Shown here in pieces: positions 27,976 to 52,162 of a stretch of DNA of 52,162 bases (positions are counted from its first letter, which is position 1; each line of letters starts with the position of its first letter). Position numbers and translations under genes: made by a program. The stretch is taken from contig RQSC01000630.1 of NCBI GenBank assembly GCA_013416795.1, positions 298,576 to 350,737 of the forward strand, read 5' to 3'. The notes beneath the pieces were generated by a model. It saw only the letters and a list, made by a program, of their open reading frames with translations. It had not been told where the DNA came from and did not search any database. The stretch is from Prasinococcaceae sp. CCMP 1430. Taxonomy: Eukaryota > Prasinodermophyta > Palmophyllophyceae > Prasinococcales > Prasinococcaceae.

Positions 27976-28446
27976 TTAGAACTGCATCCAGCCGGGCGGC
28001 GCGCGTGAGGGTGGGTCCAGTTGGCGGCGATGCGCCTGCTTCGGCGGGGCGGCCGCGGCATCGACGCGCGCAATGAGGCCTTGCAGCGCCTGCTCGCGCA
28101 GCGAGCCCGGCAGGCGCAGGGTGCGCGTCAGTTGGTGCAACGGCGGCGCGCTGGCGGCGAATCTGCGGCGGGAAGGAGGCGAGACGGGGGAGCTCCTCAC
28201 CTTGACTGCGTCTTTTCGTGCTCGTCGAAAGGTCGCGAGCTCTGCCTCCGCCTGAGGAGGATCGACGCCATCCAGGGAGAAGAGCTTCTTCTCCAGAGCG
28301 TCAACGAGGCCCGCAGCCTCGTTCGCCGCCGGCGCCGGCCCGATGGGCGACGTCGCCTGCCGCTCCAGCGCCATGACACGGTCCTCGAGCCGCTCGGCGC
28401 GACACGCGTCAACGACTGCCTTGATGCCGGCGAGGCCCGCCGGCAT
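27976..28446 (-). CDS. Small hypothetical protein, helical N-terminus
   Basis: 156 residues from ATG 28446 to TAA at 27976. Not recognised. The first half has a heptad-like pattern (AERLEDRVMALERQATSPIG; VDALEKKLFSLDGV) suggesting a short coiled coil. The second half contains LPGSLREQALQGLIARVDAA and ends PPGWMQF. A GTGAGG following DAVK could be a donor, but the nearest acceptor would make a 38-nt intron, shorter than any other seen here, so a single exon is preferred. The reading frame extends upstream without clear coding character. The non-repetitive, balanced composition of the first 70 residues supports a real gene. Confidence 0.45.
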   Translation of the reverse strand: MPAGLAGIKAVVDACRAERLEDRVMALERQATSPIGPAPAANEAAGLVDALEKKLFSLDGVDPPQAEAELATFRRARKDAVKVRSSPVSPPSRRRFAASAPPLHQLTRTLRLPGSLREQALQGLIARVDAAAAPPKQAHRRQLDPPSRAPPGWMQF

Positions 28447-29280: not shown

Positions 29281-30006
29281 ATGGCGATGTACGGCAATGA
29301 CATGGCAGACAGCATGGGGGATTCGGGGTTCTTTAGCCCGTTCATGCGCAACGCTTCGGTGGCGTCCTCGCGTTGGCAGCAGCTACTGGACAAGATGACG
29401 CCACACCCGCTGCCTCGCTGGCTGGGTACCTTAGTGCTCGCGCTGATGTATGGATTGCGCGTGTACGTGGTCCAGGGGTTTTTCATCGTCACGTACGGCC
29501 TCGGCATATACGTGCTCAACCTCTTTATCGGCTTCCTTACACCGCAGGGGATGAGCGCCGATGTCGACACCGATGAGCCGGTGCTGCCCACCAAGGACAG
29601 CGAGGAGTTCAAGCCGTTCGTCAGGAAGTTACCTGAATTCAAGGTGAGCCCGCGAGCTGGCTGTGGGTGCGGTCGGTATGCAATGACGCTCGCCCCGCCC
29701 GCTCGAGCCGCTTGCGCTGGGCGGCGAGATGCGCTGCTGACCGGCGCGTCCGCTGCCCCGACACCCCACTCCCATCCTTCTTCGCAGTTCTGGTATTCGA
29801 TCAGCAAGGCGTTCGTCATTGCTTCATTCATGACGCTATTCCCTTTCTTCGACATCCCCGTTTTCTGGCCCATCCTGCTCATGTACTGGCTCTTGCTCGT
29901 GGGGATGACGATGAAGAAGCAGATCAAGCACATGCTGAAGCACAAGTACCTTCCGTTCACCACGGGCAAAAAGAAGTTCACTGGGGCGAGCAAGAATGCT
30001 AAGTGA
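29281..30006 (+). CDS. RER1: RER1, retrieval receptor for ER membrane proteins
   Basis: Golgi membrane protein that returns escaped ER membrane proteins via COPI vesicles. Two exons: 29281-29643 and 29788-30006, phase 0, 193 residues (human RER1 is 196). Family landmarks: RWQQLLDKMTPHPLPRWLGT, a first hydrophobic pair (LVLALMYGLRVYVVQGFFIV), LNLFIGFLTPQ, the conserved DSEEFKPFVRKLPEFK immediately before the intron, then FWYSISKAFVIASFMTLFPF and FWPILLMYWLLLVGMTMKKQ, with IKHMLKHKYLPFTTGKKKF at the end. The intron is 144 nt, a multiple of three and without stop, so unspliced reading gives a false 241-residue protein. A second ATG two codons in cannot be excluded. Confidence 0.97.
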   Translation: MAMYGNDMADSMGDSGFFSPFMRNASVASSRWQQLLDKMTPHPLPRWLGTLVLALMYGLRVYVVQGFFIVTYGLGIYVLNLFIGFLTPQGMSADVDTDEPVLPTKDSEEFKPFVRKLPEFKVSPRAGCGCGRYAMTLAPPARAACAGRRDALLTGASAAPTPHSHPSSQFWYSISKAFVIASFMTLFPFFDIPVFWPILLMYWLLLVGMTMKKQIKHMLKHKYLPFTTGKKKFTGASKNAK

Positions 30007-30156
30007 CGTCGTTGTAAAGCAATTCTTCGTCGCCAATGGCACGCGTGCTGACGGGGTTGTCGCCTGCGGCGGGAGCATCATTAGTGTGGTATTACATGGG
30101 GAATGTACAGCCTTCGTGCAGCGTGCCTCGTGTCCGTTGGGCTCGCTCGCCCACGA

Positions 30157-33100: not shown

Positions 33101-34867
33101 TCGGGACGCCCGTGCGCGAGTTTGTGTTGCTTGTGTCAGCACCTACTCGTAGGTGGGGTCAGGCGCGCATGCAAGCGCCCAGAGCACGCGCGGTGGGGGC
33201 TACACACGGGTGCCAGGCGCCAGCGCGCTTCGTACTTGTCGTCGCCCGCCGTCATAAAAATCGGCGCGAATGGATGCACCGCCAGCCCCCACAGCTCGCC
33301 GTTCGTCTTGAAGCGCGCCTTGTCATAGGACACCACGTGGCCCTGCGTAATCAGTTTCCTGTTCGTCTTCCAGCTTTCCTCGGTGGACATGTCAAACTCG
33401 TGGATCTCACAACTGCGCGTGCCGACCAGCAGGCGCACGCCCTCCATACACACAGCCTTGACGCATGGCGAGCGCGCGTCGTAGAATGCCAGCGGCTTCC
33501 CCTGCGAGTCAGTCATCGCCTCCGACACCTTCGCCATGTCGATGGAAAAGACTTCCTCCAAGCTCGTCGTGAAGAATCGGACCTTGCCGTCCTTACCGCC
33601 CGTAATAGCGTATTCCTCCGTCGTCCAGATGTCGTGCACGGGACCCTGGTGAATCGCGTCGAACCTGTCCAGACAGTGCTCGCCTGTGTCTTCCCACTGG
33701 TAGATGGCGCCGCCCTGCACGCCCGTCAACGTGGTGCCGTCTGGCAGAAACGCAATGCTCAGCACCGTACACGGCGCGCCGAAGCGGCCCCACACGGCCG
33801 GGCGCCCCATCAGATAGGCGCCCTCCATCTCCCAGAATTTGAGGTGACGCACGCCCCCGGTGACCAGTCGGCCGTCGTACGGGTTGTACGCGCAGCTGAA
33901 GATTCTAGACTCGTCGCCTTTTGAGTTGGCCACCAATTTTCGCCCGCCCCAATCATACACTGCCACGGAGTGTTCGTCATCCAAGCCAACTGACCCCAGG
34001 TACTTGCCAGTGCCGTCAAAGGACAGCGAGACCACCGCGCGCTGGTGGAATCCCTTTAGCTCCGCGAGGAGCTCGCGCGTGGTCGAGCGCCACACACAGA
34101 TGGTCGGATCCCTGCCGACCTGGCCAGTGGCGACGACGTCGCGGTCCGGGTGCATGGCCATGCACACTATGTCGTCGGTGTGCTGCAGGAAGTGCCCCTG
34201 TGTGTGCAGCTCGGAGTCATAAACGATACCCACGGCGGCGGCGTGGTAAACGACCATGCCCTCGCGGTTGTAGCACACGTTGTGACGCGCGTCGTGCGAG
34301 CGGTAGCCGTACACATGATCGAGGCGCAGCGTGTTTCCCGGCTTTTCGTGCGCGTCGTGGCGCGTCTGGTACGCGCTCGGCGCGAAGATAGCCACTCTGC
34401 ACGGCTGGCGCGCCAGGAATCCCGTGTCGGTGTTGCGGTCGATTGGACCCTCCGGGGGCTTCGTTCGGCGCGTGTGGCGCTCGTTCTGCTCGGCCTCGAT
34501 CTCTGAATCGACGCCGTCGTTGTTAACGCCCATCCCAACCCCGTCGCCTGCGCGAGAGCAGCGCGTACGAGAGCGTGAGCGCCAGCGCGCACGGTGCACG
34601 CACCGAAGCGCACGCGCACGCTGACCAGCCCGGGACGTCCGCGCGGCTGCACAGCGCACACACAGCGCGGCTGCCGTCCTGATACGCACCTCCCGTCGTC
34701 CCCTCGGCACCGAACCCGAAGCCGGGCGACGCGCCCCCGTACCCAGGCGACCCGCCGCCGTACCCAGGCGACGCGCCGTCATACGCTGCGTAGCGCGAGC
34801 CAGCCGAGCCGTACCCGGGGGGCTTGCCCGGCGGCGGCGGCATTTTGGTCGACGCACCTGCCCCCAT
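30157..34867 (-). CDS. EML-type microtubule-associated protein, two tandem HELP-WD40 modules, N-myristoylation signal
   Basis: Four exons: 34690-34867, 33236-34547, 31197-33093 and 30157-31083, phases 1/2/0, giving 1437 residues. Each junction restores family sequence (GDDK|TVRVWDM; GSCIK|SLHASPGADVLLIGTR). Two copies of the EML unit are present: a HELP motif (module 1 YGYRSHDARHNVCYN; module 2 VYGARAHDARDNVFFN) followed by tandem WD40 blades ending in DW...ILQT-type and GWPVQGVWP repeats. EML5/6 have three such modules and EML1-4 one. Known EML proteins bind microtubules and several are axonemal. The short first exon encodes MGAGAST, a good N-myristoylation site (Gly2, Ser6), then a GYG/SPGYGG repeat linker. 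The same bases also contain CAG|GTGCGT, so an alternative donor in exon 1 is possible. It converges on RER1. Confidence 0.9.
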
Positions 34868-35689
34868 CGCACCACTCCTGTTCTAACGCCGCCCCCTACG
34901 GTACTCTCACACGCGGGCGAGGGCGAGGGGTCGCGGGGGCGGGCGCCCCGCCCCGCACCACACGACGCACCTCCCCGCCCTGCCCCAGCGCGCCCGCTGT
35001 GGCGCGCACGGCGTTGATTCGAACCTTCGAAGTTCGAACGGTCAGCCCACATCGCAATCGCATATCACTTCGCATGGGGTGAATGAGCTGAGTCATCAGT
35101 CTCCCGTGTGTTACTTTAAACTGTTTGTAGATGTAGTGATAGAAGATATACGAAAGGTGTACTGATGGGTCGCGTCGGCAGAAAAAAGCGCACGCTCTGC
35201 GCGGGAGAAACGGGTGTTGGCAGCGGGGCGGCGGGCGCCACAGGGCGCGCCCCTTTCCCCCCCCCTCCCCCCCCCTCTTTGCCTCCCCCGCAAGTCGAAC
35301 GATCAGCAGAGGCGCCATTGGGGCGGCCCGCGGGGCACGCAGCGGGCGCGGCGGCGGGGCTGTGCGCTCGCGGCGGTGACGCGCGGCCCCCGCCATCACC
35401 GTCGGACCGTGACATTGTTGGCTTCTTTTGCGGCCCACTGTGTGGGTGCGCGTGCGGGCCGGCAAGTGCGGCCCATACACGCGCGGCACGCGCATGGCGG
35501 CAGGACACGTCCCGTAAGAGGCTGGCGGCGCGTGCGGAGGTAAATTCTCTTCCGCCGCTGACTGTGGGGGGACGCTCTGCCTTGGGAAGGGAGCATCGGT
35601 CGGTAGAGGTTTCCTTCGACGCCTGCGATCGATCGCAGTGAGAGAGGGCTGTTGTCGATCGATTGTAGCGCAATCCCTCAGGCGAGACC
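34868..35689. promoter_or_regulatory. Divergent promoter region of EML and F-box-kelch genes
   Basis: GC-rich near the EML start, then an AT-richer island (35015-35165) with three TTCGAA palindromes. The stretch from 35200 on is GC-rich with poly-C runs. No gene was recognised. Confidence 0.45.
35018..35038. promoter_or_regulatory. Triple TTCGAA palindrome cluster
   Basis: TTCGAA occurs at 35018-35023, 35026-35031 and 35033-35038, spaced by 2 and 1 bases. It contains one GAAnnTTC heat-shock-element half pair. It lies 150 bp upstream of the EML ATG. Confidence 0.4.
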
Positions 35690-38200
35690 ATGCGCGGACG
35701 CAGCCCGAGCTCAGAAGTGGCGACGCCGCCTGTGGGAAGGGCAGCCTCTGCAACAGTGACTCACGCTGTGCAGAAGAAGGACGCGAAAGGCAAAGAGCCC
35801 GCGGACAGCACTGTCGCCGCGACGGCGGCGCGTTCGAGGCCGAGGGTCGACGGCACTGGCGGCGCGGGTGGTTCCTCATGTGAGGCTGGCGCGATCATGA
35901 TCGCAAGGGATGACGAGGAACCCCAGTGGCTGCTTATGCCAGCGATTGCTGACAACGTTATGGCTCGTGCCACAGCGCAGTCGCTTGCAGCTCTGGAATG
36001 CACTGCCAAAGGCCTGCGCGGGCGCACCGAGGCGTATGCCAAGCTGCAGGTGCTCGAGCGCCATCCTGGCGTGAAGCCCCCTCCTAGTACTACAGCCCTG
36101 CCGGCGTCGTCTTCCGTGCCTCGTCAGACGAGGTATCGCACGCGCCGCGTCACGCGTGAGGCGGCATCGGTTGGCAGCTCGGCGAGCTCGCCACCAGAAG
36201 CCCCGCCGTCGTGGTCCTGGAAGCGCGCACTTCGCGCCATCGAGCTTTGTTCCAGCAGTGCGGTCGTCGTTGGCGGCTTCAACAAGAATTGGGGATCGCC
36301 AAATCATTGCATGGCGTCCACTGAGCTGCTGGTTCAGCTCGAGACGGGCCGGGCGTCGGGACTGCCCATCGGCATGCCAAGCGACGACGAGCTGCGACGC
36401 CTCGCCGGAAGCGAGCGCCTGCTGCCATCACCGGGAACGGCCGAAGAGCCGTTGCCTGACACGCAGACACAGACGCAGTCGCAGTCTCTCCCCGATCTGG
36501 ACTTGGGTAGCAGCTGTGACGACGAGGATGAGGAGTTCATCCGCACTGCTGCCGCGCGTCACCACGCGCGCCAGCTGCGCAAAGAGCTCGTCGCCACAGC
36601 GCGGGCGCGCCTCGGAAGGGGCAGTGCCGTCTCGCGCTGTGACCGTGACGGCGCTGGCCCCAGCGCCTGGGCTTCGAGTGGCGACGACAGCGAGGATCGC
36701 GGCGGTGTCGAAAGACTCGCCACTGGGGACCCCACTGCGCCGCTGCCGCTCCCAAGCATCGACGTCGAGTCTGCGGTTGCGAAGATGCGCGCAGCCGCGA
36801 TGCTGCGCGAAGAGCAGTACACTGCTGCATGCGCCGAGGAAGACTCTCCGGCACCTTGCGGTGAGTTTGACACAGTCGTATCGGTGCTGCGCGCGCCGTC
36901 CTCTGCCTCCGACAGTGCTTTACTTGACCGTCTGAAAAAGGCTACGGCGCGCCACGATGTCATTGGCATCGCGGCGGCAGGGCGCCAATTGCGTGCGATG
37001 TATCACCGCATGATTGGATGGTTCGGCAAGTACAACTTCTCATGTGGCCTCCAGGACAAGCTGCTCACCATGTCCATCGAGCATGGTAGCGAGCGGCGGG
37101 AAGGCGAGGGACACGCTGGTCTCGGTCCGCCAAGCAGCAGCGCCCGCCTCGCAAGCTTTGCGCCGCCGCCCCTTGGCGATGACGTTGCCGACATTTCCGC
37201 ATCCCGCCTTGGCCGACACGTGCTTGTCATCGGTGGCCGCAACGGCACACATGACCAGGACTCCGTGCGCGCATGGGACCCAGCGGGCTTTTTGGGTAGC
37301 GGGTGGATTAAGCTGGCGCCACTGCCATCCCCGAGATCCTGCCTGGCCACAGCTACGGTGTCTGGCACAGCGGGTGCCGAAATTGCTGCTATGTGCGGGG
37401 CGCTCAGATACGAGCCCCACGTAGCCACCCACCATGCGGGTGCTGAGCCTGACGGTGCTCTCGGTCCGCGCTACGGCCCGGCTGCAGGTGTGCTCGACGC
37501 GCAGGAAGGTGCGGGCGTTGTTGCGGTTGGTGGATGGCAGCGCCAGCACGATCCCAACATGATAGGCCTCAGCGAGGCGCTCCTGTACGACGCGTCAGCG
37601 GACGCGTGGCGCCGGCTCCCGGACATGCGCTTCCCGCGCCTGTTTTGCACGGCCACCTCGGTGCCATGCGATGACGGAAGGCTGCATGTCGTGGGCGGCA
37701 TCGCCGTCGCCAATGGCTCGTTGGATCCCGAGCGGCGGCTTGAGGTCTTTGATGCCGGGTCCGGCCGCTGGCTCAGCCCTGATCTGGAAGAGGGCCGGCA
37801 CAACGGCGACCGCATTGTCAGCTGCCGCTGGGGGGCGGCGTCCTGCGCCATGCCCGACGGGCGGCTGCTGATCGCTGGCGGTGGCATATTCTCCCATGTC
37901 CCCGGCTTTGGGAACAATGGAGCAGCGCCGCTCGCGACCCACTCACCCGTGACAGCAAGTGCCATCGCGGTTGACCCACGCGTCCGTCCGTCCGATGCCA
38001 CCACAGAGCTGGAGGACCTGCCGAACATGACATGGGGGGCCGGGGCGACAACTGTGGGGGACAGCGTCTTCGTGATAGGTGGCAACAACACCAAGAACGG
38101 AAACTCTTACCCGCACATCTACACGCTTGACGCCCGCATGCCTAAGTGGCGCTACAGCGGCGCCATGAACGTCGGACGCTGGTGCTTCGGCTGTTGCTGA
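35690..38200 (+). CDS. F-box-like kelch protein, reading frame interrupted by TGA near the 3' end
   Basis: 836 residues from ATG 35690 to TGA 38198-38200; an alternative start is ATG 35897. An F-box-like segment (LLMPAIADNVMARATAQSLA then ALECTAKGLRG) lies near residues 80-125. A long Ser/Ala/Arg-rich spacer is followed by kelch repeats from ~37200 on: HVLVIGGRNG, VVAVGGWQRQ, LHVVGGIAVA, LLIAGGGIFS, VFVIGGNNTK. F-box-kelch proteins are usually substrate adaptors of SCF ubiquitin ligases; the target is unknown. The last repeat begins MNVGRWCFGCC and is cut by TGA. The same frame then continues GTVPPPLIVSGGHQQLL to a TAG at 38327, and the IVSGG is exactly what a kelch blade should contain. So the true protein may end at 38329 (readthrough, selenocysteine, or a nonsense/sequence error). 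Confidence 0.75.
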   Translation: MRGRSPSSEVATPPVGRAASATVTHAVQKKDAKGKEPADSTVAATAARSRPRVDGTGGAGGSSCEAGAIMIARDDEEPQWLLMPAIADNVMARATAQSLAALECTAKGLRGRTEAYAKLQVLERHPGVKPPPSTTALPASSSVPRQTRYRTRRVTREAASVGSSASSPPEAPPSWSWKRALRAIELCSSSAVVVGGFNKNWGSPNHCMASTELLVQLETGRASGLPIGMPSDDELRRLAGSERLLPSPGTAEEPLPDTQTQTQSQSLPDLDLGSSCDDEDEEFIRTAAARHHARQLRKELVATARARLGRGSAVSRCDRDGAGPSAWASSGDDSEDRGGVERLATGDPTAPLPLPSIDVESAVAKMRAAAMLREEQYTAACAEEDSPAPCGEFDTVVSVLRAPSSASDSALLDRLKKATARHDVIGIAAAGRQLRAMYHRMIGWFGKYNFSCGLQDKLLTMSIEHGSERREGEGHAGLGPPSSSARLASFAPPPLGDDVADISASRLGRHVLVIGGRNGTHDQDSVRAWDPAGFLGSGWIKLAPLPSPRSCLATATVSGTAGAEIAAMCGALRYEPHVATHHAGAEPDGALGPRYGPAAGVLDAQEGAGVVAVGGWQRQHDPNMIGLSEALLYDASADAWRRLPDMRFPRLFCTATSVPCDDGRLHVVGGIAVANGSLDPERRLEVFDAGSGRWLSPDLEEGRHNGDRIVSCRWGAASCAMPDGRLLIAGGGIFSHVPGFGNNGAAPLATHSPVTASAIAVDPRVRPSDATTELEDLPNMTWGAGATTVGDSVFVIGGNNTKNGNSYPHIYTLDARMPKWRYSGAMNVGRWCFGCC

Positions 38201-38505
38201 GGCACCGTGCCGCCGCCCTTGATTGTCTCTGGAGGCCACCAACAATTACTTCCCTGCTATGCAGTCACGCTTGCACGCATGCATGCAACCTCGCACGCCA
38301 ATTCACACTTGAAGCGACGTCAGTATTAGTAGTTTACAATGACTCAGCACGCGGGATGGGCCTCGCGATCGGAACGCGACGATCGCCGCACGCCCCCATC
38401 GCGCGCGCACCAAGCGCCGATGATGCAGCACGTGCCACCACATAAATTGTACACATTGCACCTTCTTCCTTGTGGAAACAGCCGCATGGCGTGGCATGTC
38501 AGGGG

Positions 38506-39690
38506 TCAGCTGGCGGGGTCAGCCGTGCCTGCTGCTTCGCCTGTCCTTCCTGCGGGCAGCCGACTCCTCTTTCTGACGACGGGCGCGAGCAATGACTCCT
38601 TCGAGTCATAATTGCGCTCCTCCTCGTAGGATTCCTGCATGTACAGAATCTGCAAGAGGGGCCGCCGCACACCCTCGCTCGCATTGGCGAGCCCTCTGTG
38701 CATGCAGCGATAGTCGTAGAGCACGGCGTCGCCCACACGCGCCTCCATCTCCGTGGCGCATCCGAGCACGCTCGCAGCTCCGCCGAAGCCGAGCAACTGG
38801 TCATACGCGTGCGAACCCGGCCAGAACTGGGTGGCGCCTACGCCGCTCCCGAAACGCCGCCCGGCGGGCGACAACAGAGGCACGAACGCACACACGGCGT
38901 ACGGCGGCGCGCACGCTTCGAAATGGCTGCCGTCGTCGTCGCATGCGTCCGCATCGTCTGTCATCGCTCCGCTGTCGGCGTGCGTCGTCGCTGCGGCCGT
39001 GTCCCACCCCGCGGCCGCGCCACGATGTGGGCCGTCGCTGTGCCACTCCTGGTTGGTCGTGCCGGGGCGACTCTCAACGATTGAGCACTGGAACATGATA
39101 GGCTCCTCGTCGCCGAGAGCGAGCCTGACCGCTCGTGCCCATGGCGCGCCGCACGCCAGCGCCTCGACATCTGGGGCGGCATCGAGGTCAATGAGCAGGT
39201 CAAAGCGGTGGCCGCCGCGCGATGCCACATCGGCATAGGTAAACTCCTGAAACGCACCGCCGCCCAGCGCGCGCCCAGCAGCGATGGCGGCACGCTCAAA
39301 TGCCGCCACACGCTGCATACACGCGTCAACCGCCGCCTCGAACAAGGCCCGCGAGCCGCCGCTGCCGGCGCTGTCGCCGCCGCAGCGGAGCGCGGCGACG
39401 CCGGCGCGCCGCAGCGTGTGCGCGGCCCGCCCGCAGTCGTTCGAGGTAAGCTCCGCGCAGCTCCACGTGCGCGTCGGTACTGGCACGGGTGCAGTGAGCA
39501 GCACCTCCACCATGTCGTCGACCCACTCCTCGTCCTCGTCCTCCTCGTCAGAGTCGCCCCCTCCTCGCGGCGCTGGCCGCACGAGCTCCTCCCTTGCCTG
39601 GGCGGCCGCTGCGCGGACCGCCGCGGCAACGGCCACCTCCGCGGCCCCCAAGTCATTGGGACTGCACACGACCGCCGCCGATACACGCAA
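38506..39690 (-). CDS. Phytanoyl-CoA dioxygenase (PhyH)-like 2-oxoglutarate/Fe(II) oxygenase, 5' end uncertain
   Basis: Stop at 38506; the frame is open up to a TGA at 39835-39837. No ATG was found at the 5' end; 39690 is only a TTG, so at least one 5' exon is unresolved. The conserved core begins near RTWSCAELTSNDC and FQEFTYADVASRGGHRFD. Iron ligands: EWHSDGPH (H-x-D, ~39040) and the distal histidine in DYRCMHRGLANAS (~38695), followed by RRPLLQILY, whose Arg is placed to bind 2-oxoglutarate. All three metal ligands are present. A DDDADACDDD-like acidic insertion separates them. The family includes phytanoyl-CoA hydroxylases and many oxygenases of small metabolites; the substrate cannot be inferred. 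It converges on the kelch gene. Confidence 0.75.
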   Translation of the reverse strand: MRVSAAVVCSPNDLGAAEVAVAAAVRAAAAQAREELVRPAPRGGGDSDEEDEDEEWVDDMVEVLLTAPVPVPTRTWSCAELTSNDCGRAAHTLRRAGVAALRCGGDSAGSGGSRALFEAAVDACMQRVAAFERAAIAAGRALGGGAFQEFTYADVASRGGHRFDLLIDLDAAPDVEALACGAPWARAVRLALGDEEPIMFQCSIVESRPGTTNQEWHSDGPHRGAAAGWDTAAATTHADSGAMTDDADACDDDGSHFEACAPPYAVCAFVPLLSPAGRRFGSGVGATQFWPGSHAYDQLLGFGGAASVLGCATEMEARVGDAVLYDYRCMHRGLANASEGVRRPLLQILYMQESYEEERNYDSKESLLAPVVRKRSRLPAGRTGEAAGTADPAS

Positions 39691-40124
39691 CTCAGAGCCC
39701 CCTGGCCCGCCCGCAGCAGCTTCCAGCCAGCGCTCAATCGTAGCTGCTGCGCTGTCGCCGTGGTGGCCGCCTTTGCCGCCGCTGCCGGCCGTCGCCGCGC
39801 GCAGCGCGTCCGCAACGCGCGCTGCGCGCGAATTTCACGAGCGGTGCGAACCGCAACGCGCGCTGCGCCCTGGGCGCCGCTCGCGGCGGCGGCGCGCGCG
39901 CACACGCAGAAGCGCCGCGGCGCCAGGCAGGACGCCATCGCGGACGCGCCCCCCCGTCGCCGGGGCGGCGCCCGCGCGCGGGCTCTGACGCAGCAGCACC
40001 GCCCGTGGCAAGAGCGCACGGGCCAAGGAAACGGTCGCCCCAAAACGGCGCCGGCGGCGTGCACCGGGGAAGCGAGCGCGCCCCTCCTCACAACTCAGAC
40101 CAATGAACACGGCGTCCTTATGTA

Positions 40125-42587
40125 TCAGAGCACCGTCATGTTGCGCTCTGGCACGAAACCGGTGCGCTTCCGCGACGGTGTCTTCGCTGGCGTCGACGCG
40201 TTGCTGCCGCTGCTGAGCGTGCCTGTGAGTGCGTGCGCGGGCGACAGCTGGGCGCGCGCACGAGCGTCCACGCTCACGTCTGCGGTCGGGCGCGCGTCCG
40301 CGCCAGTGTCTCCGTCTGTGTCTGTTCCCTCGCTTGCGTCCGTGGGCAACGGTAGTGCGAGTGGCGTGCCTGCCTTCAGAATTCCAACCCCACGCAGTGG
40401 TGGCAGCTCCTTCGACTTGTGGCCAACACCGTGACTGTGTGCGGCGCGTATGGGCGTGCGCGTGTGCGGGTCAGCACATCGGGCGTGCGCATGTGTGTGC
40501 ACATAGGCACTAATGTCCATGCCAGTGTTTGTGTGTGCTAGAGCATGCCGTGATGCTCGCGGCTGCGCGCGCTATCTCACCTTCCATCCTGCAGCGGCGG
40601 CAGGGCTGTTGCCGGCTTGAGCGGCGGCGCTGCCAACGCGCTCGCCCGCAACACTCGCTCCTCGTCCTCCTGCTTCTTCTCTGCGTGACTGCGCTCCTGC
40701 TCAAGCGGCTGTCGCAGCAGCGTTTGGTTGCTCGCCGAGGACGTGTCTGATTGCCTATGCTCCCCGGTGGTCGACGTGGGCGACACCTTTGGGTAGCACG
40801 CCTCGTCGCCCGCGCCAGATGGCGGACCAACTGTGGCTGGTCTTGGCACTGTCTCCCGCTTTGCCTCCTGCGCCTCCTGCGCGCGCGTGGCCGGTTTGGG
40901 CGCGCTCATCGAGGTCGCACCGCTCTTTCTCCCGCCCCTGTCGCCACCACAATGGCGATCCTCTGTAGAGCAGGAAGTGTCGCCGCCGCCACCCAATTCC
41001 GCTGGGGCTGGCATCGGCGCGGAGCCGTCCTTGAAGCGTGTCGGCGACTTGCCGAAGCCCACGCTCGCCCTGGCGGTCGAAGTAGGAGTCGTAGGAGGAG
41101 TCGCAGTCGCAGGATTGCCCATGTGGTACTCCTGTACTAATTGTCCCAGCACTGGAATCATGGCCACGTGGAAGCCGAAGAACTTCTCGCGCGCGTTGCC
41201 CACGTACAGCGTACCCTCCGCCGCCCCGAGCGTGAGCGCACAGATGGCCGCCTCGACCCTGCAGCATTCCACGGTCTTGTGTGGATCGTGCAGCACGCAC
41301 GCGGGCGTGGGCACGCGTCCGACATCGTGTCAGCCACAAGCGCGCTCCGCGCGTGCCTTCGCATGGCCATGTGCGCTCGCACCTTGACTTCCGCTCGCGC
41401 CTCTCCCTCGCCGCCGGGGTCCGCTTCCTCGAGCTGCTTGTAGTCGTACCATGCGCGCACGGTGTTGTCGTCCCCTCCGCTATAGAGCACGCTCAGTGCG
41501 GAGGACCAACCGAGGGCGTTCACCGCTGCGCCGCCCGCGTGCGCTCGCTCGCACGTGTGCGTGCGCACCAGCAGCCAAGACGAGGCGTCCCAGAATACGA
41601 TGCGGCCATCTGTGTCGCCCGAAGCGAAACGCGTGCCACCCAGCGAGCACACGCACAGAACACGCGCCGTCGCGCCCGCGCCGGGGGCCTCGTCCGGGCG
41701 TGCATTGCATTGCGCACACATCTGAGAGCGGCAGGCACGGCCATCTTGCAATCGCCAGCCTGTCACCATGCCCTCGCCGCCGCTCAGCACCAGCCTATGC
41801 GGAGGGCCATCGTCGCCGTCGGCCATCCCCACCGCCACGCACAGGGCCGGGCTCACTCGTCGCCTGGAAAAGATCAACCGCCGGAGCTTGAGCTCCTCCG
41901 GCTGCGGGCCAGCCACGGGGTGCGATAGTCTGCTTCCGAAAATCCCCTTCACGAGCGCTCGCGCGCGCGCACACCGCGGCACGAAGGCGTTCGCGAGGTT
42001 CGTGTACTCCATCACGTCGCCAGACTCGTATCCGACGTACAGCGCGTCGCCGTCCGAGCTCAGCGCCAGCGAGCAATACCCGTGGCTGTTGCGCGTCTCC
42101 TTGGCCTCCCAGATGAGCTCGCATCTGTCTCCACTCATACTCCACGCGGCGAGCCTATCGCGCGTCGCCGCCAGCAGCACGTGCATGTTGGGGCAGTCGC
42201 ACTCGGCGGCCACGAGGGCACACGCGGGGTGGGCGTCGCATTTGAGAGAGGTGACGGCCACCACCGGGCTCTTTCCGACCTTGAGCTTGTCGACGGTCTT
42301 TCCCGTGTCCAACTGCCACACGCGCACGACGCCGGCGGCCAGCCCGGCGAACGCGAGCACGCCGCTGGCGCTGCGCACGTTGGGCGCGCGTCAGCCGTGT
42401 CAGCACGCGCGCGGCACCCCGATCCTCCAAGCACGGCACGCACGCGTCGCGTGAGTGCGGACCTTCCATCGCCAACGGCGTGACTTTCTGCGAGCGCGAG
42501 CGGCGCGCGCCTCGTGGCGACGTCGGCGGCCACGGCAGAGCGCGCGAGCACGCCGGCTTGGCCCGCCCTGGGCGCGCTCGCCGGCAT
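40125..42587 (-). CDS. WD40-repeat protein, not assigned to a family
   Basis: Four exons by consensus and phase: 42463-42587 (ATG 42587), 41383-42370, 40581-41275 and 40125-40434, 705 residues. Junctions join GDG|SASGVLAFAGLAAGVVRVW, AEVK|TVECCRVEAAICAL and PPLQDG|SHGVGHKSKELPPL. WD-type blades: LAAGVVRVWQLDTGKTVDK, LYVGYESGDVMEY, RFASGDTDGRIVFWDASSW, VLYSGGDDNTVRAWYDYKQL, EGTLYVGNAREKFFGFHVAM. A CxxC pair occurs in the middle (SQMCAQCNARPDE). The C-terminal ~280 residues are disordered and charged and finish GVGILKAGTP...SRKRTGFVPERN. I do not recognise the orthologue; a scaffold role is a generic expectation only. The AAG acceptor before TVECC is weaker than the others, so that junction is the least certain. 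Confidence 0.7.
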
Positions 42588-43258
42588 CGTCGCCGGCGCG
42601 CGAACAGCACCGCCTGGCGGGCGTGGGTTACGAGCGCGACCGATGAGCAGCAGCGTGCGGCATTCGAGGAGGTGTCCGCGCCGGCGCCATACCGTACCTC
42701 CTCCTCCTCCCCTCCCCCCAATCCCAAAACCGCTCGCGCTCGCCGCGGTACGTTCCCGCTCGCCTGCCGTCCTCGTCTCTTGCCCCGCTCCTTCCAGCTC
42801 CCCCTGCCCCCTCCTGGCGCCGCTGGCCAGGGCGCCGGGCGCACCGCGCCCCCCCAGTGGCCGCGCCGCGCGCCGGTGCACGGGCGCGCGCGCGGCGCGC
42901 GCGCGCGCGGCGCGGCGAGGGGGAACGTCGAACGCGAAGCTCGCGCTCGTCCTCAAACCCTCCACCCTAAAGAGCGCCCCTGGCTGAGCCCGCCGGCGCG
43001 AACCCAGCCGTCAGCACGCGGAAGCAGCGCACGACGAAGCCTTCGACGCACACAGGCCTGCCCCCAACCTCGCGCGTACCCACCGATGGTACACAGCACG
43101 CGGGGGCACGCACTCCCCTCCACCCTCTCCAGCCTCCGTCCACCGACACAGAAGCGAGCCCCCGCGCGCGGAGGCCGCCGACCAACAACGGCGGGCGAAC
43201 GAAGGGACGCGCGGCCGCAACCGCGCCGCGACCCTTCGCCGCGGAGCTGCTGGCGCGT

Positions 43259-43282
43259 CGCGCGCGCGCGCGCGCGCGCGCG
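43259..43282. repeat. (CG)12 alternating tract (Z-DNA-prone)
   Basis: Twelve perfect CG units. Shorter CG runs occur nearby (43380-43400, 43508-43526, 43685-43700). Confidence 0.9.
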
Positions 43283-43940
43283 GATTTCGCGCGGGGCAGA
43301 TTTTTTCGCTGCCGCGCCACCTCGGTTCGGTGGCGATCGCTGCTGGTCTCCCGTGGTTTTTGTTTGGTTTCGGTCGGAAGCGCGCTCGCGCGCGCGCGCG
43401 GGTCGCGGTCGCGGTCCGACGTCGGAGATTCGAATTCTGGGACCGGCTGTTGCTTAGGCGGAACCGCTCCCCACCGCTCGAACCGGAACACGGTCACATC
43501 GCGCGATCCCGCGCGCGCGCGCGCTGATTGGTTGATTGAGGCGCACGAAGGGTGTGGTCGCGGTGGTGGTGTTGGATGGATGCCCACCAGTCAGTGAGAT
43601 GCCGAACGAATTTCGGAATGTGCCTCGTCTTTGTCTTGGGTTGGTTGCGCGCGCCCGTCCCGGGAATCAAATCGAATCCGGGGCCGCGCGCGCGCGCGTT
43701 CGGATTCGGATTCGCGCGCGGTTCGGTTCGGGTTCGGTGTGATGTGCGCTTCGCTTTGCTTTGCGTCTGCGTTTTTTTTTTTTTGGGAGAGGGGGGCTCG
43801 CGGCCATGCGTTCTGATGGGCGCAATCGGAATCGGCGCAGCCTCAGAGCGACGCCACCACCACATTTTTGTGCCGTTCGCGCATCCGAGACCCGCCTGCC
43901 CGCGCGTGAGAGAACCACGAGGATCTAGAAACCATCTGAT

Positions 43941-44034
43941 CCGGTCTGGTGGGGTTAGATAACCCGTAGAGTTACGATTTGAACCCGGTCTTTCCTAGTC
44001 TAACCCGGTCTTGCGCCTGCGTGTGACCCGGTCT
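43941..44034. repeat. ACCCGGTCT direct repeats
   Basis: ACCCGGTCT at 43983-43991, 44003-44011 and 44026-44034, with a related CCGGTCT at 43941. Spacing is 20 and 23 bases, ending 19 bases before the ambiguous base at 44053. Confidence 0.7.
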
Positions 44035-44052
44035 GGCCATGAAGGGTGGGGT

Positions 44053-46089: not shown

Positions 46090-47587
46090 TCACAGTTCGA
46101 TGCGCCCCGAGATGTCGCTGTCGGGCGTGGCCTCCCACTGCCACTCGTACGGCAGCGCCTCGCCGGCAGGGCGCTCCCATGGGCGGTAGTACAGCGCGTC
46201 GTCGCGCGCCTCGCGGAGCAGCGCCGCCGCGCCCTCGGCGACGTCGCGCGTGGCGGTTGTCGTCGCAAGGAAGTACAGCAGGTCGTACAGCGTCAGGCGG
46301 CCCTCCAGAGCGCGGTTCGACATGAACTTGGGCAGGGTCTTGTGGCCACGGGGGTAGACCGCCAGCTGTGGTCCATCGACGTACTCGCCGTGCGGAGGTG
46401 CCAGCTCATTCGAGTCGACGTTGATGCGAACGAGCAGCACTGCGCCGCCGCCAAGCTTAGCCACAGCGCCCAGGCACTCGTCGCTCTTGCCGCACGTCCA
46501 TTCCAGCTCCTCCTCCGCGCCCCCGGCCAGCGCGCCAAGACGCGCGAACGCAGGCATCGCAGACTACGCGCGAGCGCCACCCGGGCGCTGTCAGCGTTGC
46601 GAGTCCGGCTGCGCGCGCGGCAGCGCGCGCAACCGAGCGCGATCGCACCTGATGGAAGTCCGCGTGGGTGCTCGGGAAGGAGAAGTACGCGAGCACGTCG
46701 GCGGCCTGTGCGTCCGCGGAGCCCTCGACGTCGTTCGCGAAGGTTCCCGCCACCGTCTTGCGCACCGCACGGCGCCGATCCCCTAGCAGCACGCCGTCGC
46801 CGTCGGACCACTTCGGCTGCGTCTCGGACATGTAGGGCGTCGCGCTCTCGCCGGTGTCGTCGTCACGGAACTCGGACAACGGCCTACTCGCGTACTCCTG
46901 CGTACACGCGCGCGTCGCCTGCGTGGTACCCACACGCTCGTGCGTCAGCGCGAGTTGGCGCGTGCTGCCGTGGCGCGCGACTGCGCGCGCGGGAAGGGAA
47001 CGTTTCGTTCTCTGGGCAGGGAGCGGGTCGGTGCGCTGCCGGCGGCGCAACATCCGTGCCGTCTGCGGCGTGCTTGCGGGCCGCGCGCCACCACTCACCT
47101 CCCTGCACACCTCCCAATTGGCGTCGAAGGGTGCGTCGATGGAGCGTTTACCATGCGCTACGTATGCGCCAATGATCTCTTCCTCGAATGCTTCCAGCAG
47201 CTTCTCGCACGCCTTGCGTGCCTGTGGCACGTGATACGTCTCGGCGTATCGGCACGCGCCCGCGACGCCCTCCTCCACAATATCCTCGAGCTCACCGTAC
47301 TTGGTGGATGTGACGGCGCCGGTGGCGCGCCGTTCGTCCTTTCGCGCGCGCACTGCTTTGAACTCGTCGATGCGCGGGAGAAGCTCACGCTCCATGTTGC
47401 CCACGATCTCATGGCAGCCGCGGCAGCGTGGCGGCCGCCCGAAGACGTCCACGCCGTTGGCGAAGAACTGGGTGGCGGACGTCTCGCGCGGCCGCGCCTC
47501 GGCCGCGCGCGGCGCGCCCACCGCGCACAGCGCGAACGCGAGCAGGGCGGCAGCGCACGCCAACGCGCCCCCTCCCCCCCCGCGCAT
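46090..47587 (-). CDS. Canopy/saposin-like domain fused to inactive thioredoxin-like domain, secretory
   Basis: Three exons: 47099-47587, 46649-46897 and 46090-46563, all phase 0, 403 residues. ATG 47587 starts a good signal peptide (GGALACAAALLAFALCAVGA); ATG 47683 would add a Pro-rich leader. The first domain (~50-165) has the Canopy (DUF3456)/saposin pattern: CRGCHEIVGNMERELL, YGELEDIVEEGVAGACRYAE, ARKACEKLLEAFEEEIIGAY and WEVCRE. Canopy proteins act in the ER on receptor folding. After a linker, residues ~215-345 read like a PDI a-type domain (KTVAGTFANDV, ADVLAYFSFPSTHADFHQ, VRINVDSNEL, GPQLAVYPRGHKTLPKFM), but the position of the WCGHC active site is FPSTHADFHQ, so no CxxC exists. It is expected in the ER lumen as a chaperone-like factor (inference). 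Intron 1 (201 nt) is stop-free in frame. Divergent from ATP11. Confidence 0.75.
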
Positions 47588-47919
47588 CGCCGCCGCGCCG
47601 ATCGCAGGCCCCGCGGCGCCCCGTGGCAGAGGCGCGCGCGCTGTGGCGCACGCGGGGAACGGCACCGCAGGTGGCGGATGCATTTCGATCTAAAATCAAT
47701 TTCAAAACCGCTTTCTCCCCACGGATGGAATGTTTGCACTTAATTATGCGGAGTTATCCATGTATCTCCGACGTTTTTTTGCCGGCGCCGGTATACTGCT
47801 GCGGCACCGGCACAGCGCGCCCTAGCGGCGGAGGGGAGGCAGAGGCGCCCTCCGCGGGGCGTCGGAGGGGCCGCCGAGCCGGGCGTGGGCTGCAATTCCC
47901 GCGCGGCAGAGGAGGGGCC
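47588..47919. promoter_or_regulatory. Bidirectional promoter between Canopy-like (-) and ATP11 (+)
   Basis: 332 bp between divergent start codons with an AT-rich core (47690-47790). From 47606 on it is part of the 375-bp duplication found again at 49997-50371. Confidence 0.6.
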
Positions 47920-47980
47920 ATGTCGGCGCTCGCGCGCACCCGCGGTGCGCGTCTGTTTGCCGCCGCGCGCGCCGCGCCCG
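47606..47980. repeat. 375-bp duplication, copy A (promoter plus mitochondrial presequence)
   Basis: Identical to 49997-50371 at a constant offset of 2391 bases, without indels and with one mismatch seen (C/A at 47963 versus 50354). It covers the AT-rich promoter core, the 5' UTR and the first ~20 codons of ATP11, and ends abruptly after codon ~20. Confidence 0.95.
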
Positions 47981-48893
47981 CGCGCACGGCGTTCTCGTAC
48001 CCGGCGCCGCGATCGCTCGACTCGGTCGTCAAGGTCGACATGCTGAGGGACTACGACGCGCAGAAGTGCGCCGCGCTGTGGGAGGAGTACCACAACATGC
48101 GACAGCTCGCGAGCACCACCATGGGTGCCAGGTTGTACGCGCTGTACCTGGTGAGAGCGGCGCTGGCGACCGAGCGCATGCGGGGCGCGCTGCCGAGCGT
48201 CCGGAGAAGCAGCAGCAGGGCGCACGTCTGGAGCAGAATTGTCGCTGACCTCGCGCCATACCCCAAACCGGCCCTGCCCCGCCCCATTCCACACACGTCT
48301 ATGCAGGAGCGCGCGCAACGCTCTCCGATGTTCGTCGTGCCGATGCGCGCCGACGAGGACAGCCCTGCTGACGGGGACAGCGCCGCCGACCCCGACGCCA
48401 GCGAGGCGCCCGTCGCGCCGCCGGCAGCAGCGCCGCCGCTCAACATCTTCGTGCAGCAGCAGGGCGCGCACGTGCTTTTCTCGGACCTCGAGGAGTACAA
48501 GCTGCTGGGCACTGAGGCGACGCCGCTGGCGACTCTGACGCACTACGCGGATCTCGCGGAGGATAAGGTGCGCCAGTGAGAGACGGAGAGAGAGAGAGAG
48601 AGAGAGAGACGGGGGCGGGGGGGGGGAAGAGCCACCTCCCCTCCTTCTGTAGAGCGCCAGCCGCGCCCATGTGCTGACTTGAGACCGCCTCCCTCGCGCA
48701 GGCCATCGTGCTCGCCCGGTTAGACGTTGTGCGGGAGAAAGCCTTTTCGCTCGCGCGCGCGAGGGAGCTGCTCGCGCTCACGCATCGACTGTGGGTGGAC
48801 GACCAGGCGCACGCGCTCGTACAGAAGTTCAACCACGAGCCCGGCAGCTTCGACTTTAGCGACGTGCTCGCGCTGCTCGGGCACGAGAAGTAA
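47920..48893 (+). CDS. ATP11: ATP11/ATPAF1, mitochondrial F1-ATPase assembly factor
   Basis: Chaperone that binds F1 beta subunit during ATP synthase assembly in the mitochondrial matrix. Three exons: 47920-48150, 48307-48567 and 48702-48893, all phase 0, 227 residues. The N-terminus MSALARTRGARLFAAARA is a basic, amphipathic presequence. The family core follows: SLDSVVKVDMLRDYDAQKC, ALWEEYHNMR, then PMFVVPMR, LNIFVQQQGAHVLFSDLEEY, TPLATLTHYADLAEDK|AIVLARLDV and FNHEPGSFDFSDVLALLG, matching yeast and human ATP11 throughout. An acidic/Ala-Pro insertion (ADEDSPADGDSAADPDASEA) lies in exon 2. Intron 1 (156 nt) has no in-frame stop. Intron 2 contains a GA tract. The presequence and promoter are shared with MRPS34 through the duplication. 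Confidence 0.93.
48586..48609. repeat. (GA)12 microsatellite in ATP11 intron 2
   Basis: A perfect GA tract 18 bases after the donor site, followed by a G-rich run. Confidence 0.9.
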
Positions 48894-49130
48894 GAAGCTA
48901 CTCATTCTTTTTGGCGCAGCGAGCGAACCTTGCATTGGTCACCTCAGTCCATCAAACCACGAGGTGCGGCGCGGGGGAGCACACATGCGCGCGCGCGCGG
49001 GCATTCTCCGCTGGGTGGACGGATCCATCGAGGCGTGTGCACAGCGCGCGGCGCTCTCGTTCTTTACGACGCCGCGCAGAGGGCATCGCCACGCTGCCGG
49101 CTCGCCGCGCGCAGGCGCCCACTTCCTGCG

Positions 49131-49514
49131 TCACATAAGGTGCCTCCACTCGTCGGGGAAGCGCGGGTACATCCTTTTGTACAGGCTGGCGCATACGGTG
49201 TCGTGCTGCATGATAGGAATGTCGAAGAGGCACTTCATGGCGCCGTGAGTACCCACGGGCTCGGTGATGCGCCCACGGCGCCCGTGCTTGGTCCACAGCT
49301 CCAACGGGCGGAACCAGCGCACGTCGTCGGGGTTGTGGAACATCCAGCGGATGACTGCCTTGCGCTTGTGCACTTTGAGCGGGTATCCGGTGAGGATGAT
49401 GCGCTTGAGGATGATGCGGTCGGGATCGCACCGGATGAGCGAGCCGCTGAGCGCCAGCTGGATGTCGCCACTCGCCGCGCCCGCGCGCGCGCCCGTCGTG
49501 AGGCAGGGCGGAAG
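49131..49514 (-). CDS. TSR1: TSR1 ribosome-biogenesis factor, C-terminal fragment only
   Basis: TSR1 is a GTPase-like factor on pre-40S ribosomes. Only the last ~127 residues are present. The exon starts at 49514 after an AAG acceptor; stop TGA at 49131-49133. Conserved tail: LPPCLTTG, CDPDRIILKRIILTGYPLKV, KAVIRWMFHNPDDVRWFRPL, ELWTKHGRRGRI, EPVGTHGAMKCLFD, QHDTVCASLYKRMYPRFPDE. Spacing from LPP to DPDR fits the family. Upstream (49515-49995) none of the preceding TSR1 domains (BMS1/TSR1 AARP2CN, GTPase-like) is found, and at 49996 there is an N followed by an unrelated gene. So either the gene was cut by an assembly join or this is a genuine fragment or pseudogene. Coding sequence of the fragment is intact. 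Confidence 0.85.
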   Translation of the reverse strand, partial: LPPCLTTGARAGAASGDIQLALSGSLIRCDPDRIILKRIILTGYPLKVHKRKAVIRWMFHNPDDVRWFRPLELWTKHGRRGRITEPVGTHGAMKCLFDIPIMQHDTVCASLYKRMYPRFPDEWRHLM

Positions 49515-49995
49515 CTTGTGCCATCAGCGCGTGACCGCGACGACGACGACGAAGCGCGGTGGCCGCCGCCGCCGCGGGCCGCGCCGCGCGCAGCGCCGCT
49601 CGCATCGCGGGCAGCGTCGGTAGTGGCACACGCCCCCCACTCCTCCCACCCGCCCTCCCCCACGTCTATCCACACTCGCGCGGCTGCAGCGCCGCTCACA
49701 CGCCGGCCACGCGCGCAAATGCATTCTGATATGTCTCGCCGCGGACATCAACGACATCAGGGGTTAGGGTCTACAGTATGGTTTTGTTCGGGGGGTACCA
49801 TCAATGGTACGCGCCTGACCACGGTCTAATCTTCCTAGGGTTCGCCTTTTACACGGGTCAGTTTGGCAGACCAACAACACATCGTTTTATGCGGGGGTGG
49901 CCCCGCGGGCGTCACAGCGCGTGCGCGCGGGCGGGGGCATGCCTGCTGCTGGCGGCGCCGCGGCGTCGGGCGCTCCTCCGGCCGCTCGCGCCACG
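49515..49995. other. Region upstream of the TSR1 tail, with AT-rich patch and inverted repeat
   Basis: No upstream TSR1 exon was recognised on the minus strand. An AT-richer patch (49735-49890) includes GGGGTTAGGG (telomere-like) and the inverted repeat at 49795-49810. A plus-strand frame from ATG 49778 (MVLFGGYHQWYAPDHGLIFL) has no recognised relatives. Confidence 0.5.
49795..49810. repeat. Perfect inverted repeat, 7-bp arms with 2-nt spacer
   Basis: GTACCAT-CA-ATGGTAC, a perfect palindromic hairpin within the AT-rich patch. Confidence 0.85.
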
Positions 49996-49996
49996 N
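49996..49996. other. Single ambiguous base at left edge of duplicate, probable contig join
   Basis: The N sits exactly where copy B of the 375-bp duplication starts, which is where assemblers break and rejoin contigs. Confidence 0.65.
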
Positions 49997-50371
49997 AGGC
50001 CCCGCGGCGCCCCGTGGCAGAGGCGCGCGCGCTGTGGCGCACGCGGGGAACGGCACCGCAGGTGGCGGATGCATTTCGATCTAAAATCAATTTCAAAACC
50101 GCTTTCTCCCCACGGATGGAATGTTTGCACTTAATTATGCGGAGTTATCCATGTATCTCCGACGTTTTTTTGCCGGCGCCGGTATACTGCTGCGGCACCG
50201 GCACAGCGCGCCCTAGCGGCGGAGGGGAGGCAGAGGCGCCCTCCGCGGGGCGTCGGAGGGGCCGCCGAGCCGGGCGTGGGCTGCAATTCCCGCGCGGCAG
50301 AGGAGGGGCCATGTCGGCGCTCGCGCGCACCCGCGGTGCGCGTCTGTTTGCCGCAGCGCGCGCCGCGCCCG
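49997..50371. repeat. 375-bp duplication, copy B (promoter plus mitochondrial presequence)
   Basis: Second copy of 47606-47980. It carries the same AT-rich promoter core, 5' UTR and first ~20 codons, here leading into MRPS34 instead of ATP11. The right boundary lies inside the coding sequence; the left boundary is the N. Confidence 0.95.
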
Positions 50372-50907
50372 CCGCGAGCGCGCTCGAGCGCGCACAGCGC
50401 TTCGCCGGCGACACGTACGGCGCGGACGGCGAGCTCGAGGACGTGCCGAGCAGCCGCCGCGGCGGCAACAAGCGTGGCGAGCCGGGGTGGAACCTGCTAG
50501 AGCTCGTGCGCCGGCTGCCTGACTATGGCAAGGGCTCGCGCGTCGCACAGGCCAGCGACCATGCGCAGACGTATTACGAGATCTCGCGCGTCAAGCCGTC
50601 GCCCCATGACCCCTCGCACGGCAAGGTGTGGGGCGTCAAGTACCACCGCGGCGTGGCGGAGCCGAACGAGCGCCCGCGGCCCATCAGACAGGTCCTGCGG
50701 AGGCCGTGGGTGGTGCGCGAAATGGCGCAGCCAGCTGTCGCCGAGGGCGAGGACGCTCCCAAGCCGTGGATCGACATGCGCGAAAAGTACGACATCAAAA
50801 CCGAGACTGCCAGGCGCTCCGCCGCGGCTGCAATGGCCGCTCGGGAGGAGGGCGCAGAGGAGGCCAGCGAGGAGGATGGCGAGGCGACCAAAGAGGAGGC
50901 GGAATGA
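50311..50907 (+). CDS. MRPS34: Mitochondrial small ribosomal subunit protein mS34 (MRPS34-like)
   Basis: Component of the mitochondrial 28S/37S ribosomal subunit. Single exon, 198 residues from ATG 50311, ending in an acidic tail (EEASEEDGEATKEEAE). The N-terminal presequence MSALARTRGARLFAAARA is the same as that of ATP11. The mS34 signature is clear: WNLLELVRRLPDYGKGSRVA (LL-x-LLGRLP-x-x-G-x-GR in animals), YYEISRVKPS, and HGKVWGVKYHRG (HGKAWGILTFKGK in human). The spacing of these three blocks matches the family. It converges on the second Nudix gene. Confidence 0.88.
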   Translation: MSALARTRGARLFAAARAAPAASALERAQRFAGDTYGADGELEDVPSSRRGGNKRGEPGWNLLELVRRLPDYGKGSRVAQASDHAQTYYEISRVKPSPHDPSHGKVWGVKYHRGVAEPNERPRPIRQVLRRPWVVREMAQPAVAEGEDAPKPWIDMREKYDIKTETARRSAAAAMAAREEGAEEASEEDGEATKEEAE

Positions 50908-51117: not shown

Positions 51118-51824
51118 TTACACATTGCCGTCCCTGCCCGCGGCGCGCCCGGCGATGACAGGCTCGACGAGCGACGCGAGACGCTCATACACGGGCCTTT
51201 TGAAACCCACCATCGTGGGCACAAGCTCGTCGAAAGTCGTCCAACGCACGGCCTCAAACTCGCGCTTCTCGCCGCCGAGGCCACTCAGGTCGACGGACGC
51301 GTCGACGTCGTCCACATCGCCCTTGTACTCGAAGACGCTCCAATGCATCTCCTGCCCGCAGTAGCCCGCCTTCTCGAGCCATGTGCCAGGTGGCACGTCG
51401 TATGGAGTCGTCTCGGGGAGCTCGCCGATAAACTGGGCAGGTGCGCGCGCAGGACGCGCCGTCAGCGCGCGGGGGCCACCAGCTGTTGCGCGCCTGCGCC
51501 GCTCGCCAGCAGGCAGGAGCACGCAGTGGCGCTGCAGCGCACCTCAACAGCAGGTGGCCGCAGGCCCATCTCCTCGTAGAGCTCGCGCGCGGCGGCAGAG
51601 GACGGTGCCTCGCCCTCGTCAAGGCCACCCTGCGCAAACTGCCACTGCCCGCGCTTGTCCGAGCGCTCGCCGACGAGCACTCGCACGCCGCCGCTGCCGC
51701 ACGCGCTGAACACGACGGCGCCAGCGCACTGCCGGTAGCGAGGCGGCGGCGGCGGCGCGGCGGCGGCGGGCGGCTCCTCCGCGGGGGGGTGGGGGGCGTC
51801 GGCGCGGGCGGCAGCGCGGCGCAT
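51118..51824 (-). CDS. Nudix hydrolase, second RppH-like copy
   Basis: Two exons: 51543-51824 (ATG 51824 preferred, donor GTGCGC) and 51118-51432 (acceptor GCCCAG), phase 0 ([14 protein letters not shown]), 198 residues. The frame is open upstream through a hexanucleotide repeat but there becomes RVRVRV and is unlikely coding. The Nudix box [21 protein letters not shown] is complete. Flanking family features: [30 protein letters not shown] and [19 protein letters not shown]. The latter motif is shared with the Nudix protein at 44.1-44.8 kb, so the two are probably paralogues. The short Ala/Pro/Arg-rich N-terminus could be an organelle signal. Likely substrates are NpnN, (p)ppGpp or 5'-triphosphate RNA by family analogy; not determined. 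Confidence 0.85.
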
Positions 51825-52162
51825 GTGGACGTTGGCACGGACGTGGGCGCCGATGTCGACGCTGATGCGGACGTCGGCGCCGATGCGGACGCGGACGTGG
51901 ACGCGGACGCGGACGCGGACGCGAACGCGAACGCGAACGCGGAAGCGGCTTCTGAGCTGGACGGCGTCGGAGGTGACGGCGGCGGCGCGCATGACGAAGG
52001 TGACGGCGGCGTCGTGCACGACGACGGCGACGCGGCGATCGAGGACGCGGACGCGCTGCTCGTGGAGGGGGCGACGAGCGCAAGCCGGGCGGGCAGCGAG
52101 GGGAGGGAGGGGGAGCGCCCGCGGGCGCGGCGGGCGGCGGAGGCGGGGCGGCGGCACCGCGC
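51825..52162. other. Window end: hexanucleotide-repeat region, possible acidic coding exon on plus strand
   Basis: The plus strand is open from about 51795 to the window end in the frame reading [14 protein letters not shown], then [12 protein letters not shown] and [16 protein letters not shown]. That looks like an acidic disordered protein, but no start codon or domain is visible. The minus strand of the same stretch reads RVRVRVRV. Confidence 0.35.
51884..51945. repeat. (GCGGAC)n hexanucleotide repeat
   Basis: Imperfect GCGGAC/GCGAAC units for about 62 bp, with a looser version extending left to about 51840. Confidence 0.85.

Follow-up and report, generated by a model that had tools for sequence, protein, structure and literature searches.

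Background

The closest described counterparts of the locus analyzed here come from flowering plants, where unrelated mitochondrial proteins have been found to carry the same presequence. Among the cases given in PMC2631504, the presequence was copied from another gene, namely, from atp2 to rice rps11-1, from hsp70 to Arabidopsis sdh3 and from hsp22 to carrot rps10. The same source describes two related routes, the use of a common presequence via alternative splicing in maize and rice, and the gain of a promoter/5' UTR by recombination or from a transposable element in rice rpl27 and rpl6 (PMC2631504).

In the window, i.e., the entire 52,162-nucleotide stretch of DNA that we analyzed, two unrelated genes for mitochondrial proteins, ATP11 and MRPS34, are each preceded by a copy of the same 375-bp segment, and the second copy directly follows a seam in the assembly. 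Below, we describe the repeat and the genes, the further sequences that bear on them and the state of the assembly at this and other seams, and then weigh the explanations.

A nearly exact repeat at the 5' ends of ATP11 and MRPS34

The coordinates of the two copies (Table 1), their offset and their single mismatch, as reported by a first-pass annotation of this DNA, all proved correct upon direct comparison: over 375 bp, at an offset of 2391, the copies differ only at 47964 (C) versus 50355 (A), which is synonymous (codon 15, GCC and GCA, both alanine). The non-coding part of the segment (314 bases, 47606-47919 in copy A) shows no differences at all, and the identity extends one base past the 375 bp, to 47981 and 50372, respectively. 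The gene names assigned at first pass, with copy A running into ATP11 and copy B into MRPS34, are backed by Pfam (ATP11 and MRP-S34), and so is the notion of a common N-terminal leader: the first 21 residues of the two proteins are identical although the proteins belong to different Pfam families.

A search of the complete assembly (24,521,569 bases in 145 contigs) found the segment at two places only, and copy B matched copy A with 673 bits (E 2.3e-193 in the 24.5-Mb search), so that the repeat is far beyond what could be expected by chance. Self-comparison of the window together with 190.5 kb of its contig, C112 (at least 60 bp and at least 75% identity), yielded four pairs, one of them being copies A and B; the remaining three, at 76-91%, consist of adjacent or overlapping stretches. 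At the DNA level, neither a third copy nor a repeat family was detected in the assembly, nor did a 135-bp query covering the AT-rich core reveal another copy at E<=10. At the protein level, the matches to a 60-residue MRPS34 query were MRPS34 itself, ATP11 (E 6.7e-5) and four more at E 0.06-1.3, which we take as chance matches, judged by E alone. The mismatch is followed by 17 identical bases up to the end of the block, and this common tail occurs at these two places only among the 230,691 bases checked; the private difference within the block implies that copy B is not a plain copy of copy A. Whereas copy B abuts an N, copy A lies inside a contig, without any N within 2 kb. Weak BLAST similarity that might have extended the homology to the left across the N at 49996 was rejected, being as high in 129 of 1000 GC-rich random flanks and in 57 of 1500 unselected ones.

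Table 1. Features around the repeat (positions in the window)
Feature	Position	Strand	Remarks
Divergent gene	46460..47587	-	signal-peptide-like start; weak match to DUF3456, under the Pfam threshold
Copy A of the 375-bp segment	47606..47980	+	intergenic/promoter part 47606-47919 plus ATP11 codons 1-20
AT-rich core in copy A	47681..47780		24-56% GC in 25-bp steps; between divergent gene starts; putative promoter
ATP11 (F1-ATPase assembly factor)	47920..48893	+	exons 47920-48150, 48307-48567, 48702-48893 (manual reading); spliced product 227 aa; PF06644, 99.1 bits
TSR1, C-terminal part with stop codon	49131..49481	-	RIBIOP_C (PF04950) to position 291 of 291; convergent to ATP11; rest of the gene not adjoining
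End of the left contig, from the TSR1 part to the N	49482..49995	-	AT-rich stretch, orphan ATG 49605, Ala/Arg-rich start
46-bp exact match to C2:336649-336694	49507..49552		inside a CWC15-like gene on contig C2
Single N	49996		assembly seam; copy B begins at the next base
Copy B of the 375-bp segment	49997..50371	+	runs into MRPS34; leader backed by P0001
MRPS34/mS34	50311..50907	+	198 aa, intronless; PF16053, 35.1 bits

The common leader lies outside the conserved cores of both proteins, given that the ATP11 core starts at residue 27 and the similarity to mS34 at residue 44-61. Upstream of both ATGs, the reading frame remains open, back to 47362 for ATP11 and to 49819 for MRPS34, so the start codons are predicted ones; another protein sequence, P0001 (see below), begins at the same methionine as the predicted MRPS34 start. 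The leader contains four Lys/Arg and no Asp/Glu in 20 residues. Because the 18-residue hydrophobic moment of the leader alone is low (0.162, compared to 0.353 and 0.434 for longer starts), it is the identities of the two proteins that point to mitochondrial import, which the common leader would be expected to direct. On the other side of the segment, the ATG of the divergent gene (47587) is located 18 bases to the left of copy A, with a second in-frame ATG (47683) inside the copy, and the AT-rich core may function as a promoter.

Other sequences of the two proteins

The protein search with MRPS34 retrieved one entry, P0001 (source ENA, 11 member sequences, contig of 1929 bp), which is identical to the protein from the window at 196 of the 198 residues and starts MSALARTRGARLLAAARAAP, that is, with the same leader carrying one change. 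On the strength of this entry, the leader on MRPS34 is probably genuine. The two differences suggest that P0001 comes from another strain, and it is by virtue of these differences that it would qualify as independent. For ATP11, the best relative, P0002, is identical at 158 of 160 residues and begins at residue 60, P0003 begins later, and P0004, a distant ATP11 with 26% identity, has a different start; none of these three sequences covers the ATP11 5' end. In the protein searches, P0001, with its same leader, was the only close relative for either gene whose start is intact. Both differences between P0002 and the window (in 160 residues) fall within the 52 residues encoded by intron 1. Set against this divergence, one mismatch in 375 bp hints at less change than copies older than the strain split should show, the differences being too few for a test of gene conversion. 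A scan of GTDB with a 28-base promoter string, in a collection that is a poor place to look for a eukaryote, gave no matches, and the 12 stretches that matched MRPS34 in a scan of viral contigs, equally ill-suited to a eukaryote, included no relative.

The seam at 49996 and the broken TSR1 gene

TSR1 is an essential gene. In the window, it breaks off about 500 bases from copy B, and the missing 5' part should be located where the N at 49996 and copy B now stand. The sequence between the TSR1 fragment and the N (49482-49995) holds an orphan 5' end with the ATG at 49605, and the gene that owns it was not found; it also includes the 46-bp match to C2, where the gene containing it is, by our assignment from its sequence, presumably CWC15-like. 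A genome search with PF04950 yielded three places, on C67 (profile positions 41-290), in the window (186-291) and on C43 (2-194). On C43, the 5' part of TSR1 follows a single N (C43:166432) and joins Rab geranylgeranyltransferase alpha (RabGGTA) in frame, with no N between the two; locus L025 (C43:166370-170071) spans this fusion. A 300-residue query from C43, scored against the 7996 candidates with the most words in common, matched P0005 (eukprot:PRCOL_00003254-RA), all 461 aligned residues being identical. This public RabGGTA model, however, opens with MHNRPRPPPD, and its agreement with C43 begins at residue 11. Searches of the assembly for these first residues as uninterrupted codons gave no match (an intron-split start would escape both patterns), and splicing as the source of the differing start was rejected because the 60 bases preceding the join lack an AG. 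Because the start of P0005 differs, its codons were not found and no AG precedes the join, comparison of these sequences indicates that the TSR1-RabGGTA gene on C43 is most likely a false in-frame fusion.

The PRCOL prefix of P0005 we take to denote Prasinoderma coloniale. The published genome of this species has a size of 25.3 Mb; PMC7455551 gives 69.8% GC, PacBio reads and NextDenovo, with 22 chromosomes in a figure legend. The assembly that contains the window has 145 contigs and numerous Ns and seems to be different from the published one, and it is from the latter that P0005 would be derived.

Similar copies at other seams

Within 242.7 kb, there are 12 single-N sites, six of which were covered by whole-assembly searches; the best candidates were scored, so that the counts are lower bounds. 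At least three of the six sites abut a copy of 213-828 bp that is exact or nearly so, namely, 44053 in the window (213 bp, with C79), 49996 (copy B, with its local partner) and C112:97349 (828 bp, with C75); at C112:103902, 181275 and 189503, no N-ending copy was among the best candidates scored. The stretch ending at the single N at 44053 (43840-44052) is identical to C79:444182-444394, and the final 40 bases of this stretch occur on C114 as well, after a single N. The 828-bp stretch (L013:1521-2348), a glycosyltransferase-92-like fragment that ends at a single N, is identical to C75:314403-315230, and diverged relatives of it are present on C129 and C32. The upstream frame is suggestive of the C75 copy being the native one, with the qualification that the frame is open in both copies and the Pfam match falls within the repeat.

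The only other repeat pair open to judgement is a 924-bp exact repeat between C112 (L013:6221-7144) and C53 (L039). The C53 copy starts at a single N and carries the 5' part of TerC (3-148 of 178 profile positions), which continues in frame into an ABC1 kinase; the copy inside C112 is fuller, spanning positions 3-176, so that in this pair it is the copy away from the N that is the complete gene. TerC/ABC1 kinase on C53 and TSR1/RabGGTA on C43 display the same shape of join, with an N followed by a piece of another gene that is joined in frame to the next gene close to its start. Among the seams, the TerC and RabGGTA cases are the firm ones.

The N-abutting pattern alone does not prove an artefact because true exact repeats also break assemblies. 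Repeats occur away from single Ns as well: from C112:95001 onward, 170 bases past a 9.6-kb N run, 327 and 235 bp are identical to C72 and C73, and diverged repeat families are present in the assembly. In a 20-kb control stretch (24001-44000), the sole exact match longer than 100 bp was the part abutting the N at 44053. Systematic local overlap as the meaning of a single N was rejected, given that only one of the 12 sites, 49996, has a local repeat of at least 60 bp. Elsewhere in the window, there is a 639-N run (21424-22062), and approximately 410 bp near the right end (51752-52161, 390 exact) match C67:226262-226671 on the minus strand, stopping one base before a long N run that starts at C112:350738, just outside the window.

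Weighing the explanations

By our judgement, which is not a computed value, there is an even chance that MRPS34 and ATP11 share a mitochondrial leader by way of a real duplicated segment. A short segment, consisting of the AT-rich promoter core, the 5' UTR and the first ~20 codons, would have been duplicated, giving two unrelated genes a common presequence, rich in arginine and devoid of acidic residues, and, provided that the copy is complete, a common promoter too. This reading is favored by the single mismatch in 375 bp, by the private difference inside the block, by P0001 with the leader on MRPS34, and by the position of copy A within a contig, 2 kb from the nearest N and with the frame kept. 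It is also in line with the TerC pair, where the copy away from the N is the complete gene, and with the mitochondrial function of both proteins, the open frame in each gene and the location of the leader outside the two conserved cores; doubt is cast on it by the position of copy B next to the N, by the similar joins on C53 and C43, by the missing 5' part of TSR1 and by the low hydrophobic moment. Beyond the two copies in the assembly, the reading frames and the leader of MRPS34 in a second sequence, this reading infers a genuine ATP11 copy, a promoter included in copy B, a direction of transfer and mitochondrial import. The ATP11 leader, the putative common promoter, the near-identity and the 2.4-kb spacing are, so far, features of this one assembly, and, given the misassembly of the gap region, the 2391-bp spacing across the N is not credible. 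More tentatively, a local duplication that predated the split from the P0001 strain would have given MRPS34 (or ATP11) a full promoter/5' UTR/presequence module, with gene conversion, which is possible, keeping the copies nearly identical and one regulatory sequence serving genes for the mitoribosome and for ATP-synthase assembly.

The original proposal of a segmental duplication with promoter and targeting signal thus holds in part: two copies in the assembly and the MRPS34 leader stand, whereas the presence of both copies in the genome and a common promoter are not established. Likewise, the idea that MRPS34 carries this leader is borne out by P0001, but the role of MRPS34 as the recipient and the sharing of the promoter are not, and neither is the suggestion that the near-identity reflects youth or gene conversion. 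The doubt that the first-pass annotation itself raised over the N at 49996 was well placed, as the broken TSR1, the 46-bp foreign piece and the recurrent N-ending copies attest.

Less probably, in our judgement, the 5' end of ATP11 is chimeric, and there is a single real copy before MRPS34, perhaps between MRPS34 and the divergent gene. Two contigs would overlap by 375 bp, the left one bearing a wrong tail (ATP11, the TSR1 end and the orphan piece), which would make them unmergeable and leave one N. Such a chimera accounts for the one-base gap, the same strand, the close spacing and the missing 5' part of TSR1, and it fits P0001; moreover, N-free joins inside contigs do occur in this assembly, as TSR1/RabGGTA on C43 compared to P0005 illustrates. 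It requires, however, that a mitochondrial leader came to be joined, by accident and in frame, to a mitochondrial protein, even if GC-rich Ala/Arg codons make such joins likelier. The restriction of the 17-base tail to two places also speaks against it, as does the rarity of local repeats at single Ns, which indicates that contig overlap is not their usual cause.

It is improbable that copy B is the artefact, with gap filling or contig extension having placed the 5' region of ATP11 before a truncated MRPS34. The shape is that of the C53 and C43 joins and of the seams at C112:97349 and 44053, and copy B begins exactly at the N, but P0001, a differing sequence, has the same leader on MRPS34, which makes it unlikely that copy B alone is false, and the private difference inside the block argues in the same direction. 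A single leader serving both genes via alternative splicing, as in rps14/sdhB of maize and rice, would explain two proteins with one leader but can be practically dismissed, given that each gene is contiguous with its own leader copy and no GT donor is present at the point of divergence (47981/50372), the nearest GT past it being within 11 bases downstream in copy A, with none in that range in copy B. In our judgement, then, the choice is now between a real common module and a false ATP11 5' end, the latter fitting the one-base gap and a contig overlap.

Comparison with known systems

Literature searches on shared presequences and on the ATP11/MRPS34 pair brought up nothing on point among the matches listed. 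With chimeras produced at contig ends or by gap filling in draft assemblies, the locus has in common the N-abutting copy, the broken gene at the seam and the occurrence of several like cases in the same assembly; it differs in that a second MRPS34 sequence, P0001, keeps the joined leader. Should the duplication be refuted, the case would be a warning that this assembly yields convincing in-frame fusions at its seams, so that shared-leader and fusion-gene claims based on it need long-read support.

With presequence acquisition in flowering plants, the likeness is that two unrelated mitochondrial proteins have the same presequence. The plant cases, however, involve genes that moved from the mitochondrion to the nucleus, whereas MRP-S34 is, as we take it, specific to the mitoribosome, so no recent gene transfer is implied for MRPS34, and ATP11 and MRPS34 share, in addition, ~314 bp of non-coding 5' sequence. 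The rice rpl27 and rpl6 type is similar in that the 5' sequence comes from elsewhere; here, only two copies were found. If real, the arrangement would belong to the known presequence-duplication type, with a common promoter as an extra, and would be a new case, within a deep-branching green lineage, of a whole 5' module, promoter and targeting signal together, being copied from one nuclear gene for a mitochondrial protein to another, unrelated one.
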